From positions 62,001-126,000 of the forward strand of contig NZ_CP040710.1 in NCBI RefSeq assembly GCF_005943945.1: a stretch of 64,000 bases of DNA. Reading direction: 5' to 3'. The DNA comes from Aggregatimonas sangjinii (lineage in GTDB: Bacteria; Bacteroidota; Bacteroidia; Flavobacteriales; Flavobacteriaceae). Under the pieces are notes generated by a model. That model had not been told where the DNA came from. It did not search any database and saw only the letters and a list, made by a program, of their open reading frames with translations. The position numbers and the translations under genes were made by a program. Shown here piece after piece: positions 1 to 5,945 of the stretch. How positions within the stretch are numbered: position 1 is the first letter of the stretch; each line of letters starts with the position of its first letter.

Positions 1-1135
1 ATAAGATCATGCCGATCATAAAAATGGTGTAGGTCCACCGCAAGAGCTTGTACTTTGTATTCAATACCACCCCCAAGAAGTAAAGGTCTTTGGTCAAATT
101 CGAATACAAATAACTTTGATCCTTTATGAGTTCCTGCATGGCCCATTCATAATCCGGTAATTTCATTTTGTGAAAGTTTCCGAAAAATAAGAGATTCACC
201 TTTTTATTCTTTACATCCTCTTTATTGAATTCTCCACTCGTAATATTCGGTCGTGTGGCCAAGACCGACATGATCATCGATGCTACGCTAAAAAGTACAA
301 AGATTCCAGTAGGATAAATTAGATAATCGTTGCTCGGGTTGTCAAGCTTGGGAATAAGGTTGGTAAGCAGGAGAGAAATGATGATGGCATTGACCGACAA
401 TAAGATATTTGCTTTGGTATCGGCAATATCGCTGAGTTTCAAATGATTGCGCATGGTAACGCGGTACATTGTCTGAATGCCTCTTTCCGGACTGTTATTT
501 TTTAACTTGACCTTAAGCGCTTCTTTTCTGAACGTTTTTTGCTGTTTCTTACGGGCTTTGACCAGCTTTTTGAGATTGCTGTCCTTTCCGCTTTGCCAAT
601 TTTCCCTGGCATAATCGGTGTAGAAGCGATGTTCCGTTTGAAACATTTTAATATTCGCTTTACGCCATTGCTTCTGGTTAAATTCTGCTACGCCCAGCAA
701 TGATAGCTCCTCCCTTAGCATTTCGGAGGTCTGCACATAACTGCTTTGTCCCAAGTGGGAGGAGTCGGCATCCCTTATGATTTCTTCCAAAAGATTTTTT
801 GGGGAATGGGTGCGCATGGTGGCCATGATTAGGGAGCAGACCAATTGAACTCCTTCGGTATCATAATTTCGTTCTGTCAAGAATTCCTTGGCAATTGCAC
901 AGCTATTTTTCTCGTGCTCCGCTATCCCTTTCGTATAACCGGTGTCGTGAAGCCAAGCCGCTAGATGTATCGCTTCTCTTTCTTTTGCTTTCAGGTCAAA
1001 GTTATCCAACAATTCTTTAGTACTTTTAACGACCCGTTGTGTATGCCTCAGATTGTGGTACAAAAAATTCTTGTCTAGCTCATTGGTCAAGAGCTCGGTT
1101 ACATATTCTTCGGTCTTGGAAAGTATATCGGACAT
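1..1135 (-). CDS. HD-domain phosphohydrolase fused to Pycsar-effector-like (PycTM/DUF5706) membrane domain, 3' end outside window
   Basis: The frame is open from the ATG at 1133-1135 (protein begins MSDILSKTEE) to the window edge, about 378 codons, so the C-terminus is missing. The N-terminal half has HD-superfamily metal ligands: YHNLRH (H27, H31), WLHDTGY (HD at 63-64) and a later IRDADSSHLG. This suggests hydrolysis of a phosphorylated or cyclic nucleotide. After a basic linker (KKLVKARKKQQK) comes ADTKANILLSVNAIIISLLL, the hallmark of the PycTM effector domain of Pycsar anti-phage systems, followed by a second hydrophobic helix and the start of a third near the edge. In Pycsar the membrane domain acts after binding cyclic CMP or UMP; no cyclase gene is visible here, although one could lie beyond base 1. 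The start codons of this gene and the divergent phosphoesterase gene are only 39 bp apart. The family call is firm; the biological role is inferred. Confidence 0.8.
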   Translation of the reverse strand, partial: MSDILSKTEEYVTELLTNELDKNFLYHNLRHTQRVVKSTKELLDNFDLKAKEREAIHLAAWLHDTGYTKGIAEHEKNSCAIAKEFLTERNYDTEGVQLVCSLIMATMRTHSPKNLLEEIIRDADSSHLGQSSYVQTSEMLREELSLLGVAEFNQKQWRKANIKMFQTEHRFYTDYARENWQSGKDSNLKKLVKARKKQQKTFRKEALKVKLKNNSPERGIQTMYRVTMRNHLKLSDIADTKANILLSVNAIIISLLLTNLIPKLDNPSNDYLIYPTGIFVLFSVASMIMSVLATRPNITSGEFNKEDVKNKKVNLLFFGNFHKMKLPDYEWAMQELIKDQSYLYSNLTKDLYFLGVVLNTKYKLLRWTYTIFMIGMIL

Positions 1136-1174: not shown

Positions 1175-4100
1175 ATGAAGGGTGTCGTTATCACTAAACA
1201 TTTTATACTAATTGTATTGCTCGCACTATTTACGGGCTGTGCCACATACAAAAGCAAGTATCTAGATACCGCCAATGCAGACGATGCCCCTACTACAAAA
1301 GAGGTTTCGCATACGTTTTATCTAGTGGGCGACGCCGGTCTCTCGCCCTTTGGCGGAATGAACAAAGCTTTGACCATTTTCAAGGATCGATTGGACAAGG
1401 CCGATGAGAACAGTACGGCGATTTTCTTGGGAGATAATATCTACCCTGCGGGTATGCCTGATAAAAAAGATTCTACGGCCGCATATGTAAATGCCAAAAA
1501 CGACCTGGATGCCCAACTCAAGACGCTGGAGAACTATAAAGGGAAGCCTTTCTTCATTCCCGGTAATCACGATTGGTACACCGAAGGTCTCGTAGGGTTG
1601 GAACGTGAACAGAAGTACATACAGGAGAAATTGGATAGTAAGGAAGTATTCTTTCCGGAGGATGGCTGTCCTATGAAAACCATCGAGGTCAATGATCAAA
1701 TCATCATCATCGCGTTGGATACGGAATGGTACCTCACGAATTGGAACAAGCGTCCCGATATCAATGACAAATGCGAGATCAAAGACCGTGAAAAACTTTT
1801 TGAGGAAATCGAGAGCGAGATTAAAAAAAATGCCGGCAAAACCATCGTAATGGCATTTCACCACCCGATGTTCAGCTACGGTTCGCATGGGGGTCAATAT
1901 AGTGTGAAACAGCATTTATACCCAAAGAGCAACATTGGCCCGGTGCCTTTTTTGGGCACTTTTGTAAATGTGCTCCGAAGAACCACAGGGGCGTCTATTG
2001 CCGACATCCAAAATAAGCGCTATACCGAACTGAAAAAGCGCTTGGTCACCTTGGCACAATATTCCGATAAGGTCATTTTTGTGTCGGGTCACGAGCACAC
2101 ACTGCAATATATCGTTGAGAACAGCACTCCGCAAATTGTTAGTGGTTCTGGCGCAAAAAAGGGGTGGACACGGCTTTTGAACGGAAGTCAGTTCTCCACT
2201 GGGCATATGGGCTACGCCACCTTGGAAGTTTATACCGACGGCTCATCGCGGGTTCGCTTTTATGGGGTGAATGATGAAAGCGATACTGAGGAGTTTTTAT
2301 TTACTACGAACGTCTTTGCCCCGGATAGGGAAATCAATGAAGAGAAATACGATGAGGTGTTCCCAGCGACCTACAGCGCTTCCATTTATACCGAGGATGA
2401 AATTGATAAAAGTGGATTTTTCAAAGGTCTGTGGGGTGAGCGCTATCGAAAATATTATGCTACCAATGTTACTGCTCCTACCGTAAACTTAGATACGCTC
2501 TTCGGTGGCTTAAAACCAGTACGGAAAGGCGGGGGACACCAATCCAAGTCGTTGCGCTTACGTCACAAAGATGGAAAGGAGTACGTGATGCGGGCCTTAC
2601 GGAAGGTTTCGGAACTCTACTTACAGGCCATGGTCTTTCAAGAGCAATACGTTATCGACGATTTAGAAGATAGCTATTTACAGGAGTTTCTGATGGATTT
2701 TTATACCGGAGCTAATCCGTATGCGCCTTTTACTATTGGCAAACTATCCGACGCCGTTGGTCTTTATCACACCAACCCGACGCTCTATTATGTTCCGAAA
2801 CAACCGGCTCTTGACCAATACAATACCGATTTCGGAAACGAGCTGTATATGATCGAGGAACACGCAGGAGACGACCATGACATTGAAAGTTTTGGTTTTA
2901 GCAGAGAACTAAAGAGTACCGACGATATGTTCGATAATCTTCGCGATGACGAAAAGTATGAAGTGGATTCGGATGCCTATCTGCGCGCCCGTTTGTTCGA
3001 TATGGCCATAGGCGATTGGGATCGTCATGTAGACCAGTGGCGCTGGGCCGAATTCGAAGGCAAAAACAAAAAAGGAAAGAAATCAAAAAAGACCATTTAC
3101 CGTCCGGTTCCCCGGGACAGAGACATGGCATTCTCCAATATGGGAGACGGTTTATTTATGAACATCGCCACACGAATAATCCCTAGCCTGCGGATTATGG
3201 AAGGATACAAGAAAAAAATTAGAAACGTAAAAGGGTTCAATTCCTCCCCTAAAACATATGTTCTCGACGTAGCGCTGTTGAACCAAAAAACAAGGGAAGA
3301 ATGGCTAAAGCAAGCTACTTACATTCAAGAACACCTAACGGCGGAAATAATCGATGACGCTTTCAAACAATTTCCAGAAGAAGTACGGGACGGTACGGTC
3401 GACAACATTAAGGAAATTCTACTCTCGCGGATCGAGCAGCTTCAGGAAACTGCAAATGCATACTTTGAGATAATAAATAAATATGCCGTCGTAACTGGTA
3501 CGGATAAGGACGATTGGTTTGAAATCAATTATAAGGAAGGGCAAGTAAAAATTAAGGGATACCGTATTATCGATGGCGATAAAGAGAAGAAGTTTTACGA
3601 AAATACCTTTCGAAAAAACGTGACCAAAGAAGTTTGGGTATACGGGCTTGACGATGACGATAAGTTCAAGGTCAAGGGTACGAACAATAGCGGTATCAAA
3701 GTGAGATTGATCGGGGGGCAAAACAATGATATTTACGACGTAGGTGCAGGCAAGGGTACGTTCATTTACGATTATAAATCCAAAAAGAACACCTTGAAAG
3801 ACGTGTCGAAGGCCAAGGTGCGACTGACCGATAATTATGAGGTCAATACCTATCGCCCCTTAAAGTTTAGGAGCAGTACCAACCAATTCATCCCGACTAT
3901 CGGATTCAATCCCGATGACGGTATAAAAGTGGGGATCAGCAATATGTATACGTTCAATGGCTTTAGGCAAAACCCTTTTACGCAACAGCACCGTACCGCA
4001 CTCTCCTATTATTTCGCGACCAGTGGTATAGAGTTCGATTATCGCGGAGAATTCGCGAACGTTACCGAGAAGGCCAATCTGGAAATTGCGGCAAGATTCA

Positions 4101-4912
4101 CCAGTCCCAATTTCGCGATAAACTTCTTTGGTTTTGGCAACGAGACCGATAATTTAGACGATGACCTGAGCTTGGATTACAATCGGGTGCGACTGCAGAC
4201 CTTGCGCTTCTCGCCGTCCTTGGTGTGGCGGGGGCAATTGGGGAGTAAATTGAGACTAGGGATCAACTATGAGAACATTCAGGTAGAAGAAACGGAAGAG
4301 CGCTTTATCAATACTTTTTATCTGGCGAATGGGGAAGAGAGTACGCGTAGCTTCACAGGTATAGATGGCCAATACACCTATGAAAATAGCGATAATTCGG
4401 CCTTTCCGACAATAGGAATGGCAACGTCGTTGCAAATAGGGTACAAGACCGGCCTGAGCGGTGGCGGCTCTTTCGGTTATGTGATTCCCACGCTGTCGTT
4501 CGATTACAAACTGAGTGCGAACGGGAAACTGGTATTGGCCACCAAATGGAAAGCCCATTTGAATATCGGGAATGGTTTCGAATTTTATCAAGGCGCAAGT
4601 ATTGGAGGGATAGATGGCCTGCGCGGATTCCGAAACCAACGGTTTACCGGCAAACGCTCATTCTATCAAAATACCGATATCAGACTAAGCCTTGGAAAGG
4701 TAAAAACCGGAATTTTACCCACTGCCATTGGGTTGTACGGGGGATTCGATTATGGTCGCGTATGGGAATCCGAAGACCCCTCCAATATCTGGCATACCTC
4801 TTATGGGGGCGGTTTTTTCTTGAATATGACCGATTTGATATCCGCTCGGGCAGCACTTTTCAATAGTGTAGACGGACTCCGTTTTTCGTTTGGGATAGGA
4901 TTCGGGTTTTAA
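1175..4912 (+). CDS. Lipoprotein: calcineurin-like metallophosphoesterase, kinase-like middle region and Omp85/BamA-like C-terminal barrel
   Basis: 1245 aa. The N-terminus is a lipoprotein signal (LLALFTGC, Cys22). Residues about 45-400 carry all metallophosphoesterase motifs: VGDAG (51-55), GDNIYP (86-91), GNHDW (130-134), FHH (228-230) and GHEH (305-308), so phosphate-ester hydrolysis is expected. Residues about 440-740 hold an unassigned block with kinase-like elements: a beta strand VMRALRK (471-477), GDWDRHVDQW (613-622) resembling the catalytic loop of CotH/HipA/FAM20-type kinases, and PVPRDRDMAF (644-653) resembling a metal-binding aspartate motif. Residues about 895-1245 look like an outer-membrane barrel, with GLRGF (1148-1152) matching the conserved Omp85 loop motif. 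The protein is probably anchored in or spans the outer membrane. Phosphoesterase and barrel are well supported; the kinase-like reading is my inference. It is monocistronic, with a divergent neighbour upstream and a convergent one downstream. Confidence 0.85.
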   Translation: MKGVVITKHFILIVLLALFTGCATYKSKYLDTANADDAPTTKEVSHTFYLVGDAGLSPFGGMNKALTIFKDRLDKADENSTAIFLGDNIYPAGMPDKKDSTAAYVNAKNDLDAQLKTLENYKGKPFFIPGNHDWYTEGLVGLEREQKYIQEKLDSKEVFFPEDGCPMKTIEVNDQIIIIALDTEWYLTNWNKRPDINDKCEIKDREKLFEEIESEIKKNAGKTIVMAFHHPMFSYGSHGGQYSVKQHLYPKSNIGPVPFLGTFVNVLRRTTGASIADIQNKRYTELKKRLVTLAQYSDKVIFVSGHEHTLQYIVENSTPQIVSGSGAKKGWTRLLNGSQFSTGHMGYATLEVYTDGSSRVRFYGVNDESDTEEFLFTTNVFAPDREINEEKYDEVFPATYSASIYTEDEIDKSGFFKGLWGERYRKYYATNVTAPTVNLDTLFGGLKPVRKGGGHQSKSLRLRHKDGKEYVMRALRKVSELYLQAMVFQEQYVIDDLEDSYLQEFLMDFYTGANPYAPFTIGKLSDAVGLYHTNPTLYYVPKQPALDQYNTDFGNELYMIEEHAGDDHDIESFGFSRELKSTDDMFDNLRDDEKYEVDSDAYLRARLFDMAIGDWDRHVDQWRWAEFEGKNKKGKKSKKTIYRPVPRDRDMAFSNMGDGLFMNIATRIIPSLRIMEGYKKKIRNVKGFNSSPKTYVLDVALLNQKTREEWLKQATYIQEHLTAEIIDDAFKQFPEEVRDGTVDNIKEILLSRIEQLQETANAYFEIINKYAVVTGTDKDDWFEINYKEGQVKIKGYRIIDGDKEKKFYENTFRKNVTKEVWVYGLDDDDKFKVKGTNNSGIKVRLIGGQNNDIYDVGAGKGTFIYDYKSKKNTLKDVSKAKVRLTDNYEVNTYRPLKFRSSTNQFIPTIGFNPDDGIKVGISNMYTFNGFRQNPFTQQHRTALSYYFATSGIEFDYRGEFANVTEKANLEIAARFTSPNFAINFFGFGNETDNLDDDLSLDYNRVRLQTLRFSPSLVWRGQLGSKLRLGINYENIQVEETEERFINTFYLANGEESTRSFTGIDGQYTYENSDNSAFPTIGMATSLQIGYKTGLSGGGSFGYVIPTLSFDYKLSANGKLVLATKWKAHLNIGNGFEFYQGASIGGIDGLRGFRNQRFTGKRSFYQNTDIRLSLGKVKTGILPTAIGLYGGFDYGRVWESEDPSNIWHTSYGGGFFLNMTDLISARAALFNSVDGLRFSFGIGFGF

Positions 4913-5014: not shown

Positions 5015-5866
5015 TCAAGGCAGGACTAGGGAATATAGGTTGCCTCCTTCATTACCCCTTTTTTCGTCGGAGAGAAAAAGGGTGTCGTTGTCCGAAAAGC
5101 AGACCGACTCCAGTTGCGTGCGTATCCCCAAATCGAATTCCTCAATGGTGACGCCGGAAAAATCGTTTAATGTAAAGTCCGTCAATCGCCATAATTTCCC
5201 ATATCCTAAAAGCACGATAGTTTTACCATTTGGTGAAATATCCGCCGAGGTAATTCGACAGGTGTTCCAGTCGAGGCAAATGTTGAGCCTACCCACTAAT
5301 TTTGCATCCTGTTTCCCTTTTTTATCTATTACACGGTAAATCGAAGTCTCTCCAGTAAACGGATTACCGTCGTTCTTTGTAAATATATAAAGGTTTTGGC
5401 CGTAGTGAAAAAAGGCCTCGGCATCGAATACCCGGTCTTCTTTTTTGGCTGGGAAATCTTTTTGCTCCGGATACCTGAATTTTATTTTTTTGGCATCTAT
5501 TTTGTCACCAGGTTCCGTCTCCGGATTGGGAAGTTTGTAGATGGTCAGGTTTTTACGGTTGTTATCATTATTTCCAAAATCCCCAATGTACAAATTGCCA
5601 TTTGAATTAGTTGCTAAATCCTCCCAATCCCCGTTTTTGGCATTTTTGACCTCCAGCTTCTGTATGATTTCCCCTTTGTGGTTTACCTTGTAGATATTGT
5701 CGCCGTTACCCTTGTCTTCTATAAGCCACACCGTTGAATCGTTGAACATGGCGATACCCGAGTTTTCATCAAGACTTGAAGGTAAGTCGGCAACGAATTT
5801 CAGCTGCCCATGCCCTGCACAGCCAACGAACCATGCCGAGGCAAGTAAGAGAAGGTATCTATTCAT
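5015..5866 (-). CDS. Predicted lipoprotein with beta-propeller-like repeats, function unknown
   Basis: 283 aa from the ATG at 5866. A GTG fifteen bases upstream is in frame, but the ATG gives a clean lipoprotein signal, MNRYLLLLASAWFVGC. The mature part has strand-turn-strand repeats with phrases such as NSGIAMFNDSTVWLIEDKG, GDWEDLATNSNGNLYIGDFG and RVFDAEAFFHYGQNLYIFTK, which resemble six-bladed propellers of the SdiA-regulated or phytase-like esterase families common in Bacteroidota. No catalytic residues can be assigned. It is convergent with the phosphoesterase gene (102 bp between stops), and a short hairpin (5010-5014 with 5020-5024) overlaps its 3' end. Confidence 0.65.
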   Translation of the reverse strand: MNRYLLLLASAWFVGCAGHGQLKFVADLPSSLDENSGIAMFNDSTVWLIEDKGNGDNIYKVNHKGEIIQKLEVKNAKNGDWEDLATNSNGNLYIGDFGNNDNNRKNLTIYKLPNPETEPGDKIDAKKIKFRYPEQKDFPAKKEDRVFDAEAFFHYGQNLYIFTKNDGNPFTGETSIYRVIDKKGKQDAKLVGRLNICLDWNTCRITSADISPNGKTIVLLGYGKLWRLTDFTLNDFSGVTIEEFDLGIRTQLESVCFSDNDTLFLSDEKRGNEGGNLYSLVLP

Positions 5867-5945
5867 AGGATTTGTTGTCACGAACCTTTAGGCTGGGCAA
5901 TAATCGGCAAAATGAATAGCGGTTCTTCAATTAAAAGGGGATTAG

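Follow-up and report, generated by a model that had tools for sequence, protein, structure and literature searches.

A kinase-like domain predicted between the phosphatase and the Omp85-type barrel of a predicted Bacteroidota lipoprotein

In the flavobacterium Aggregatimonas sangjinii, a stretch of 64,000 nucleotides (contig NZ_CP040710.1, positions 62,001 to 126,000; here called the window) carries a gene whose product combines a calcineurin-like phosphatase, a predicted kinase-like middle domain, and an Omp85-type barrel. An outer-membrane-anchored extracytoplasmic kinase/phosphatase is the best explanation for this protein and, with catalysis and location inferred, one that we hold with slightly better than even confidence. 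The open reading frame starts with ATG and encodes 1,245 amino acids without an internal stop, and the triple fusion proposed in a preliminary description of the sequence is borne out. Among named relatives, the closest that were found belong to the Flavobacteriaceae, with Maribacter halichondriae (74%) first. The gene and its parts are as follows.

1175..4912, + strand: whole gene, with phosphatase, kinase-like core, beta domain, and Omp85-type barrel (open reading frame, 1,245 amino acids)
1175..1240, + strand: predicted lipoprotein signal, LFTG followed by C (Cys22) (sequence, lipobox-like)
1313..2329, + strand: calcineurin-like phosphoesterase of the purple acid phosphatase/tartrate-resistant acid phosphatase (TRAP; ACP5) type (Pfam, profile against PDB, ligand positions)
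2408..3490, + strand: kinase-like core, residues 412-772 (AlphaFold2 model m507707792514, Foldseek)
2504..2542, + strand: glycine-rich loop GGLKPVRKGGGHQ, residues 444-456 (conserved in 90 homologs; at the model's first strands)
2579..2605, + strand: beta-3-like strand EYVMRALRK with R473 and K477 (conservation)
3011..3040, + strand: catalytic-loop-like motif GDWDRHVDQW, residues 613-622 (conservation, hhalign; putative role)
3104..3133, + strand: metal-binding-like motif PVPRDRDMAF, residues 644-653 (conservation, hhalign; putative role)
3482..3826, + strand: beta-rich domain joining the kinase-like core and the barrel, approximately residues 770-884 (DSSP of model mafaddd8f37aa)
3872..4912, + strand: Omp85-type barrel with GLRGF motif, approximately residues 900-1245, plus stop codon (NCBIfam Omp85_fam below cut-off; sequence)

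Predicted fold and conservation of the middle domain

The middle domain had been suspected of being kinase-like from its two motifs, which lie at the residues given above as first described, and AlphaFold2 and Foldseek agree with that suspicion in giving it a kinase-like predicted fold. Models of residues 398-900 (alignment A1, 65 sequences) and of the core, residues 412-772 (alignment A3, 78 sequences), reached a predicted local distance difference test score (pLDDT) of 88.0 and 88.2, respectively, and a predicted template modeling score (pTM) of 0.89 each. In the core model, three strands round the glycine-rich loop are followed by helices, two strands, further helices, the DWDRH loop, a hairpin, and DRD, an order that fits a kinase; the strand postulated upstream around VMRALRK is predicted in both models (EYVMRALRK, residues 469-477 in the larger and 469-474 in the core model). 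In a Foldseek search of PDB with the larger model, COQ8A, PI4KIIalpha (probability 1.00), and RIO2 (0.99) ranked among the leading matches; 3 of the 893 matches reached an E value of ≤0.001. For the core, the best matches were CtkA (3akk_B; E value, 1.1e-4), HipA (4pu3_A; 3.4e-4), and PI4KIIalpha (4hnd_B; 1.3e-3), each with a probability of 1.00, and RIO2 (0.98) and a Fam20C/20A complex (5yh2_D; 0.94) were also retrieved. The best 50 of the 513 core matches all look kinase-fold, mostly by title or name; about eight of them (e.g., YihE, Rv3197, MSMEG_1954, and a pre-40S chain) we take to be kinase-fold entries. The models thus predict a protein-kinase-like, two-lobed fold in which the loop residues and the metal residues follow the order seen in kinases.

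Conservation was counted over 90 nonredundant homologs (<70% identical) out of 167 aligned middle domains; the counts omit homologs that do not cover approximately residues 480-740 (or 480-760), as well as any row that is at least 70% identical to a retained one. The domain recurs in three forms, namely, phosphatase-kinase-barrel, kinase-barrel with a signal sequence, and kinase alone. The four residues singled out beforehand, D616, H618, D648, and D650, are retained in 84, 81, 84, and 82 homologs, and the same holds for D614 (88), R617 (87), Q621 (84), R473 (82), K477 (86), and E561 (89). This conservation exceeds chance, and neither of the two outcomes named beforehand as refuting the kinase reading, a non-kinase predicted fold or poorly conserved residues, was obtained. 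Of the 90 homologs, 80 have both D616 and D648, and 2 have neither. D616 together with D648 or D650 is kept by all but one of the 55 full-length rows, by 23 of the 32 kinase-barrel rows, and by all three kinase-alone rows; the forms were assigned by length, and the kinase-barrel rows include the contig-cut L061, L139, and probably L115.

Since the profile comparisons by hhalign were weak, the kinase reading rests chiefly on the predicted structure and the conserved motifs. Of the two relationships, to CotH and to HipA, that were compared by hidden Markov model profiles, the first found weak support and the second did not stand out from the decoys. Against profiles of 30 CotH and 30 HipA sequences, 20 decoys, and two reversed profiles, the core scored best with CotH (P = 0.011, top of 24 profiles), with both named motifs aligned, and second best with HipA (P = 0.064), with only the first motif aligned; decoys gave P values of 0.068 to 0.8 (n = 20) and reversed profiles 0.30 to 0.33 (n = 2), and CotH compared with HipA gave 1.8e-4. 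On these sequence scores, CotH appears to stand slightly above the decoys, and HipA is inseparable from the best of them.

Pfam searches of 67 members gave scattered weak matches, e.g., to EnY2 in five (best E value, 0.0026) and to CotH (PF08757) in one (0.019), and nothing exceeded the cut-off in 10 kinase-alone proteins (best, DUF1598, 0.0019). No match to PF08757, HipA (PF07804), or Fam20C was detected in the window protein or the 10 kinase-alone proteins, and neither PF07804 nor Fam20C is among the families listed for the 67 members (25 of 32). Profile A2 (67 rows) had no sequence match in PDB up to an E value of 10. At the sequence level, the domain belongs to none of the CotH, HipA, and Fam20C families. 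HipA and CtkA, its best structural matches, differ from the window protein, whose middle domain has no sequence-family match above cut-off; they are cytoplasmic toxins or effectors, not outer membrane proteins. CotH kinases, closest in the profile comparison, are absent among the Foldseek matches listed for both models. The fold of Fam20C, which acts outside the cytosol, is similar to that of the core, and we know of no Fam20 fusion to a phosphatase and a barrel. Three CotH-family matches occur elsewhere in the A. sangjinii genome (G000:C1:3133570-3137149 and 4200514-4201536).

Phosphatase domain and Omp85-type barrel

The phosphoesterase proposed at the N terminus is clear, as Pfam places Metallophos (PF00149) at residues 47-246 above its cut-off (E value, 2.5e-8). 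Profile A4, built from 42 of 58 phosphatase rows (leaving aside five with changed ligands [L002, L003, L158, L120, and L168] and 11 others), retrieved seven PDB sequences at an E value of 0.001, six of them TRAP/purple acid phosphatases and one GAP50, with 2bq8 as the best match (1.3e-15). The seven metal-ligand positions are intact in 53 of the 58 aligned domains (55 full-length and 3 stand-alone phosphatases). With its GDxG, GDN, GNHD, HHP, and GHxH motifs and this sequence match, the domain is probably a TRAP-type purple acid phosphatase; unlike ACP5, with which it shares the profile match and the ligand positions, it is joined to a kinase-like domain and a barrel.

The Omp85 assignment of the C terminus is less firm than first described: the loop-6-type motif GLRGF is present, and the models stay below their cut-offs. 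Omp85_fam of NCBIfam reached 55.9 bits (E value, 5e-15; curated cut-off, 200), ShlB of Pfam 21 bits, just under its cut-off of 22.7, and the NCBIfam BamA model also matched below cut-off. Metallophos and ShlB were the only Pfam matches in the whole protein (E value up to 10), and no POTRA domain was found in that scan. With PF00149 above cut-off, no POTRA domain, and a barrel match below cut-off, the protein corresponds to the "Metallo" subfamily of Omp85 proteins, in which PF00149 lies N-terminal to a POTRA-less barrel (Heinz and Lithgow 2014, PMC4104836). To the subfamily as presented in that article, it adds the kinase-like core and the beta domain in between. The main text of PMC4104836 discusses PF00149 in terms of a metalloprotease and does not contain the word kinase. 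A metalloprotease or quality-control factor, as suggested there, is extremely improbable here, since PF00149 is by its Pfam definition a calcineurin-like phosphoesterase and the profile matches TRAP/purple acid phosphatases with the ligand positions kept.

The combination of phosphate removal and transfer in one protein had been called unusual. The architecture is not rare, and the pairing of phosphatase and barrel has been known since 2014; the novelty lies in the middle domain, which appears to be new within the searches made. In the open-licence PMC literature, no description of a kinase-like domain in Omp85 proteins was found, nor anything that pairs Omp85 with a kinase domain and polyphosphate or that treats CotH together with kinase-like, periplasm, and Bacteroidetes.

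Proposed function and alternatives

In the arrangement that we propose, the Omp85-type barrel would sit in the outer membrane, and the lipid, the TRAP-type phosphatase, and the HipA/CotH/Fam20-like kinase domain would lie on the periplasmic side. The N-terminal domains of Omp85 proteins are periplasmic, and the residues after Cys22 (CATYKSKY) do not include the acidic stretch that a signal for surface export in Bacteroidota would be expected to have; from these two points, we infer the periplasmic side. A strict regular expression found the lipobox in 30 of 55 full-length rows, with near matches by eye in others. The kinase domain would modify an envelope substrate with phosphate or a similar group, with D616 as the proposed catalytic base and D648/D650 and Q621 as metal ligands. 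The phosphatase domain would reverse this modification or recycle phosphate, and both domains may act on the same target.

Several observations weigh against an active kinase of this kind. For the middle domain, Pfam and NCBIfam searches of the whole protein gave no family match above cut-off, and PDB searches by single sequence and by profile gave nothing above cut-off either. The structural matches of the core are modest, with 2 of 513 at an E value of ≤0.001 and, for the three best, TM-scores of 0.33 to 0.47 (TMt) and 0.38 to 0.43 (TMq) at a root mean square deviation of 7.5 to 11.8. The periplasm is generally considered to be free of ATP. Canonical kinases carry a lysine in strand 3, a position that here seems to hold R473. 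Key residues deviate in 12 of the 90 homologs, nine of them kinase-barrel forms, GDWSRR replaces GDWDRH in 2 of 13 kinase-alone sequences, and the kinase-like domain is degenerate in three relatives of 693 amino acids and one of 712. Some copies may therefore be pseudokinases. That the domain in general is a pseudokinase, in which ligand binding gates or couples the barrel without catalysis, would agree with the retention of degenerate domains in some lineages and is nevertheless unlikely, given that 78 of the 90 homologs show identity at every one of the eleven key positions and that the acidic residues are so consistently kept in full-length forms. An enzyme that has a kinase fold but a different chemistry (AMP transfer, glutamylation, a COQ8-like ATPase, or PI4K-like phosphorylation of lipid or sugar) is a minor possibility: COQ8A and PI4KII stand beside protein kinases among the closest folds, and the arginine in strand 3 and the glutamine at D+5 relative to D616 (Q621, where canonical kinases have asparagine) would suit it, but the phosphotransferase acidic residues are retained and nothing points to a particular alternative.

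Distribution and modularity

The whole protein found a match in 137 of 296 genomes of the phylum Bacteroidota, and profile A2 of the middle domain found one in 115 of these genomes and 63 of 140 genera. Five of 72,556 plasmid records and no phages (E value, 1e-5) matched, and a mobile or phage origin is accordingly not favored. Kinase-barrel forms mostly lack a lipobox (pattern in 2 of 32), and L134 and L135 encode kinase and barrel separately, in two genes approximately 1.2 kb apart. D616 and H618 are present in 11 of the 13 kinase-alone sequences inspected, and five of the 13 are stand-alone cores of 423 to 425 amino acids with an N-terminal hydrophobic anchor, all of which keep the motifs. 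In a tree of 75 cores, with changes counted over 73 labeled rows (two contig-cut rows left out), explaining the presence of the phosphatase takes seven changes, six of which are imposed by branches with good support; the three-way architecture takes nine. Since the core is seen without the phosphatase and also alone, it is a real independent module.

The genome of A. sangjinii also encodes two full-length paralogs, at 38 and 39% identity. Both (L002 and L003) have lost phosphatase ligand residues and retain GDWDRH and PRDRD, and the domains therefore appear to be under separate selection. Related genes lie at the following positions.

L233:4050-7748 and L234:7251-10943: the two A. sangjinii paralogs
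L237:5259-6536, L238:5556-6827, L239:4939-6210, L240:5339-6610, and L147:5382-6653: core-only proteins of 423 to 425 amino acids
L235:4126-9151 (three genes) and L236:4433-7778 (two genes): kinase-alone gene clusters, approximately 520 to 570 amino acids
L241:3808-5889, L242:4253-6334, L243:3540-5621, and L244:3805-5943: barrel relatives of 693 to 712 amino acids with a degenerate kinase-like domain

One paralog follows PPK1 and DUF2652, and the other precedes a PAP2-type phosphatase-like gene. Four of the 423- to 425-residue cores end in a CFEC motif, and the core of L237 has a weak PADLOC match to PDC-M03A over the catalytic loop (E value, 2.2e-4). The GDWSRR variant occurs in one member each of the L235 and L236 clusters. 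The homolog of Maribacter antarcticus (L071:6013-9724) lies in two overlapping frames, by sequencing error or as a broken gene, and was excluded from the counts.

Gene neighborhood

The window gene is flanked by two genes on the opposite strand.

1..1135, - strand: divergent neighbor, HD-PycTM-type protein, 401 amino acids, running 71 bases past the window start (L233:17931-19136)
5015..5881, - strand: convergent neighbor, YjiK-like beta-propeller lipoprotein (profile A5)

The divergent neighbor matches PycTM in PADLOC (2.7e-18) and belongs to a BLAST cluster present in 125 loci, in one member of which (L117) Pfam found the HD domain. PycTM is a fold listed among phage-defense effectors; the PADLOC matches were not taken as evidence of defense. 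Profile A5, made from the window propeller and all but one of the 19 cluster 9 members, matches YjiK (PDB 3qqz; 7.5e-10), and propeller clusters 1 and 9 (87 and 19 loci) are joined by hhalign at 99.1% (40 of cluster 1).

A neighborhood of HD-PycTM, propeller, PPK1, and SixA-like genes is recurrent and is new here. Neighbor genes were grouped by BLAST with domain searches on some members, and the counts are lower bounds because some flanks are short. Within 5 kb, an HD-PycTM gene accompanies 58 of the 90 homologs (31 of 38 near loci [L001 to L112] and 27 of 52 far loci), a propeller lipoprotein 47 (28 near and 19 far), PPK1 13 (1 near and 12 far), and a SixA-like gene 12 (0 near and 12 far); none of the four is found at 2 of the 38 near and 20 of the 52 far loci. 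Domain calls on representatives gave TIGR03705 for PPK1, PycTM with HD, His_Phos_1, and YjiK for the propeller profile; the SixA model stayed below its cut-off on the SixA-like representative (56.4 versus 74.5).

Among 80 genomes bearing homologs, PPK1 is no more than 1.5 kb from a listed copy in 13, no more than 5 kb in 17, and no more than 20 kb in 35, and it is thus not close in most. For a distance of 5 kb, we calculate an expectation of about half a genome, and this proximity spans 10 of 24 families. In family f23, PPK1 lies approximately 10 kb away and was not taken as a functional neighbor, as the intervening genes in L245, the one locus inspected, look unrelated. In L247, HD-PycTM, PPK1, propeller, and fusion follow one another on one strand, overlapping or nearly touching, and L248 looks the same by open reading frame positions. 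The set is split in the window genome, with HD-PycTM divergent from and the propeller convergent on the window gene; PPK1 is approximately 8.4 kb from that gene, upstream of paralog 2, from which a DUF2652 gene separates it; paralog 2 is approximately 11.4 kb from the window gene. The link to PPK1 suggests a role in phosphate or polyphosphate metabolism. That PPK1, HD-PycTM, the YjiK-like propeller, and the fusion make up a single extracytoplasmic phosphorylation module, whose kinase domain would draw on polyphosphate or its products instead of ATP to phosphorylate envelope targets, is a speculative and decidedly unlikely extension of the kinase/phosphatase reading.

Implications

The reading of the "Metallo" subfamily of Omp85 proteins as proteases is corrected by these results. 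An active middle domain would mean that kinase and counteracting phosphatase are combined, beyond the cytoplasm, in a protein family widespread among Bacteroidota, and would raise the question of the phosphate donor in that compartment. A natural test set is provided by the intact fusions, those whose phosphatase site is lost, the stand-alone cores, and the degenerate copies.

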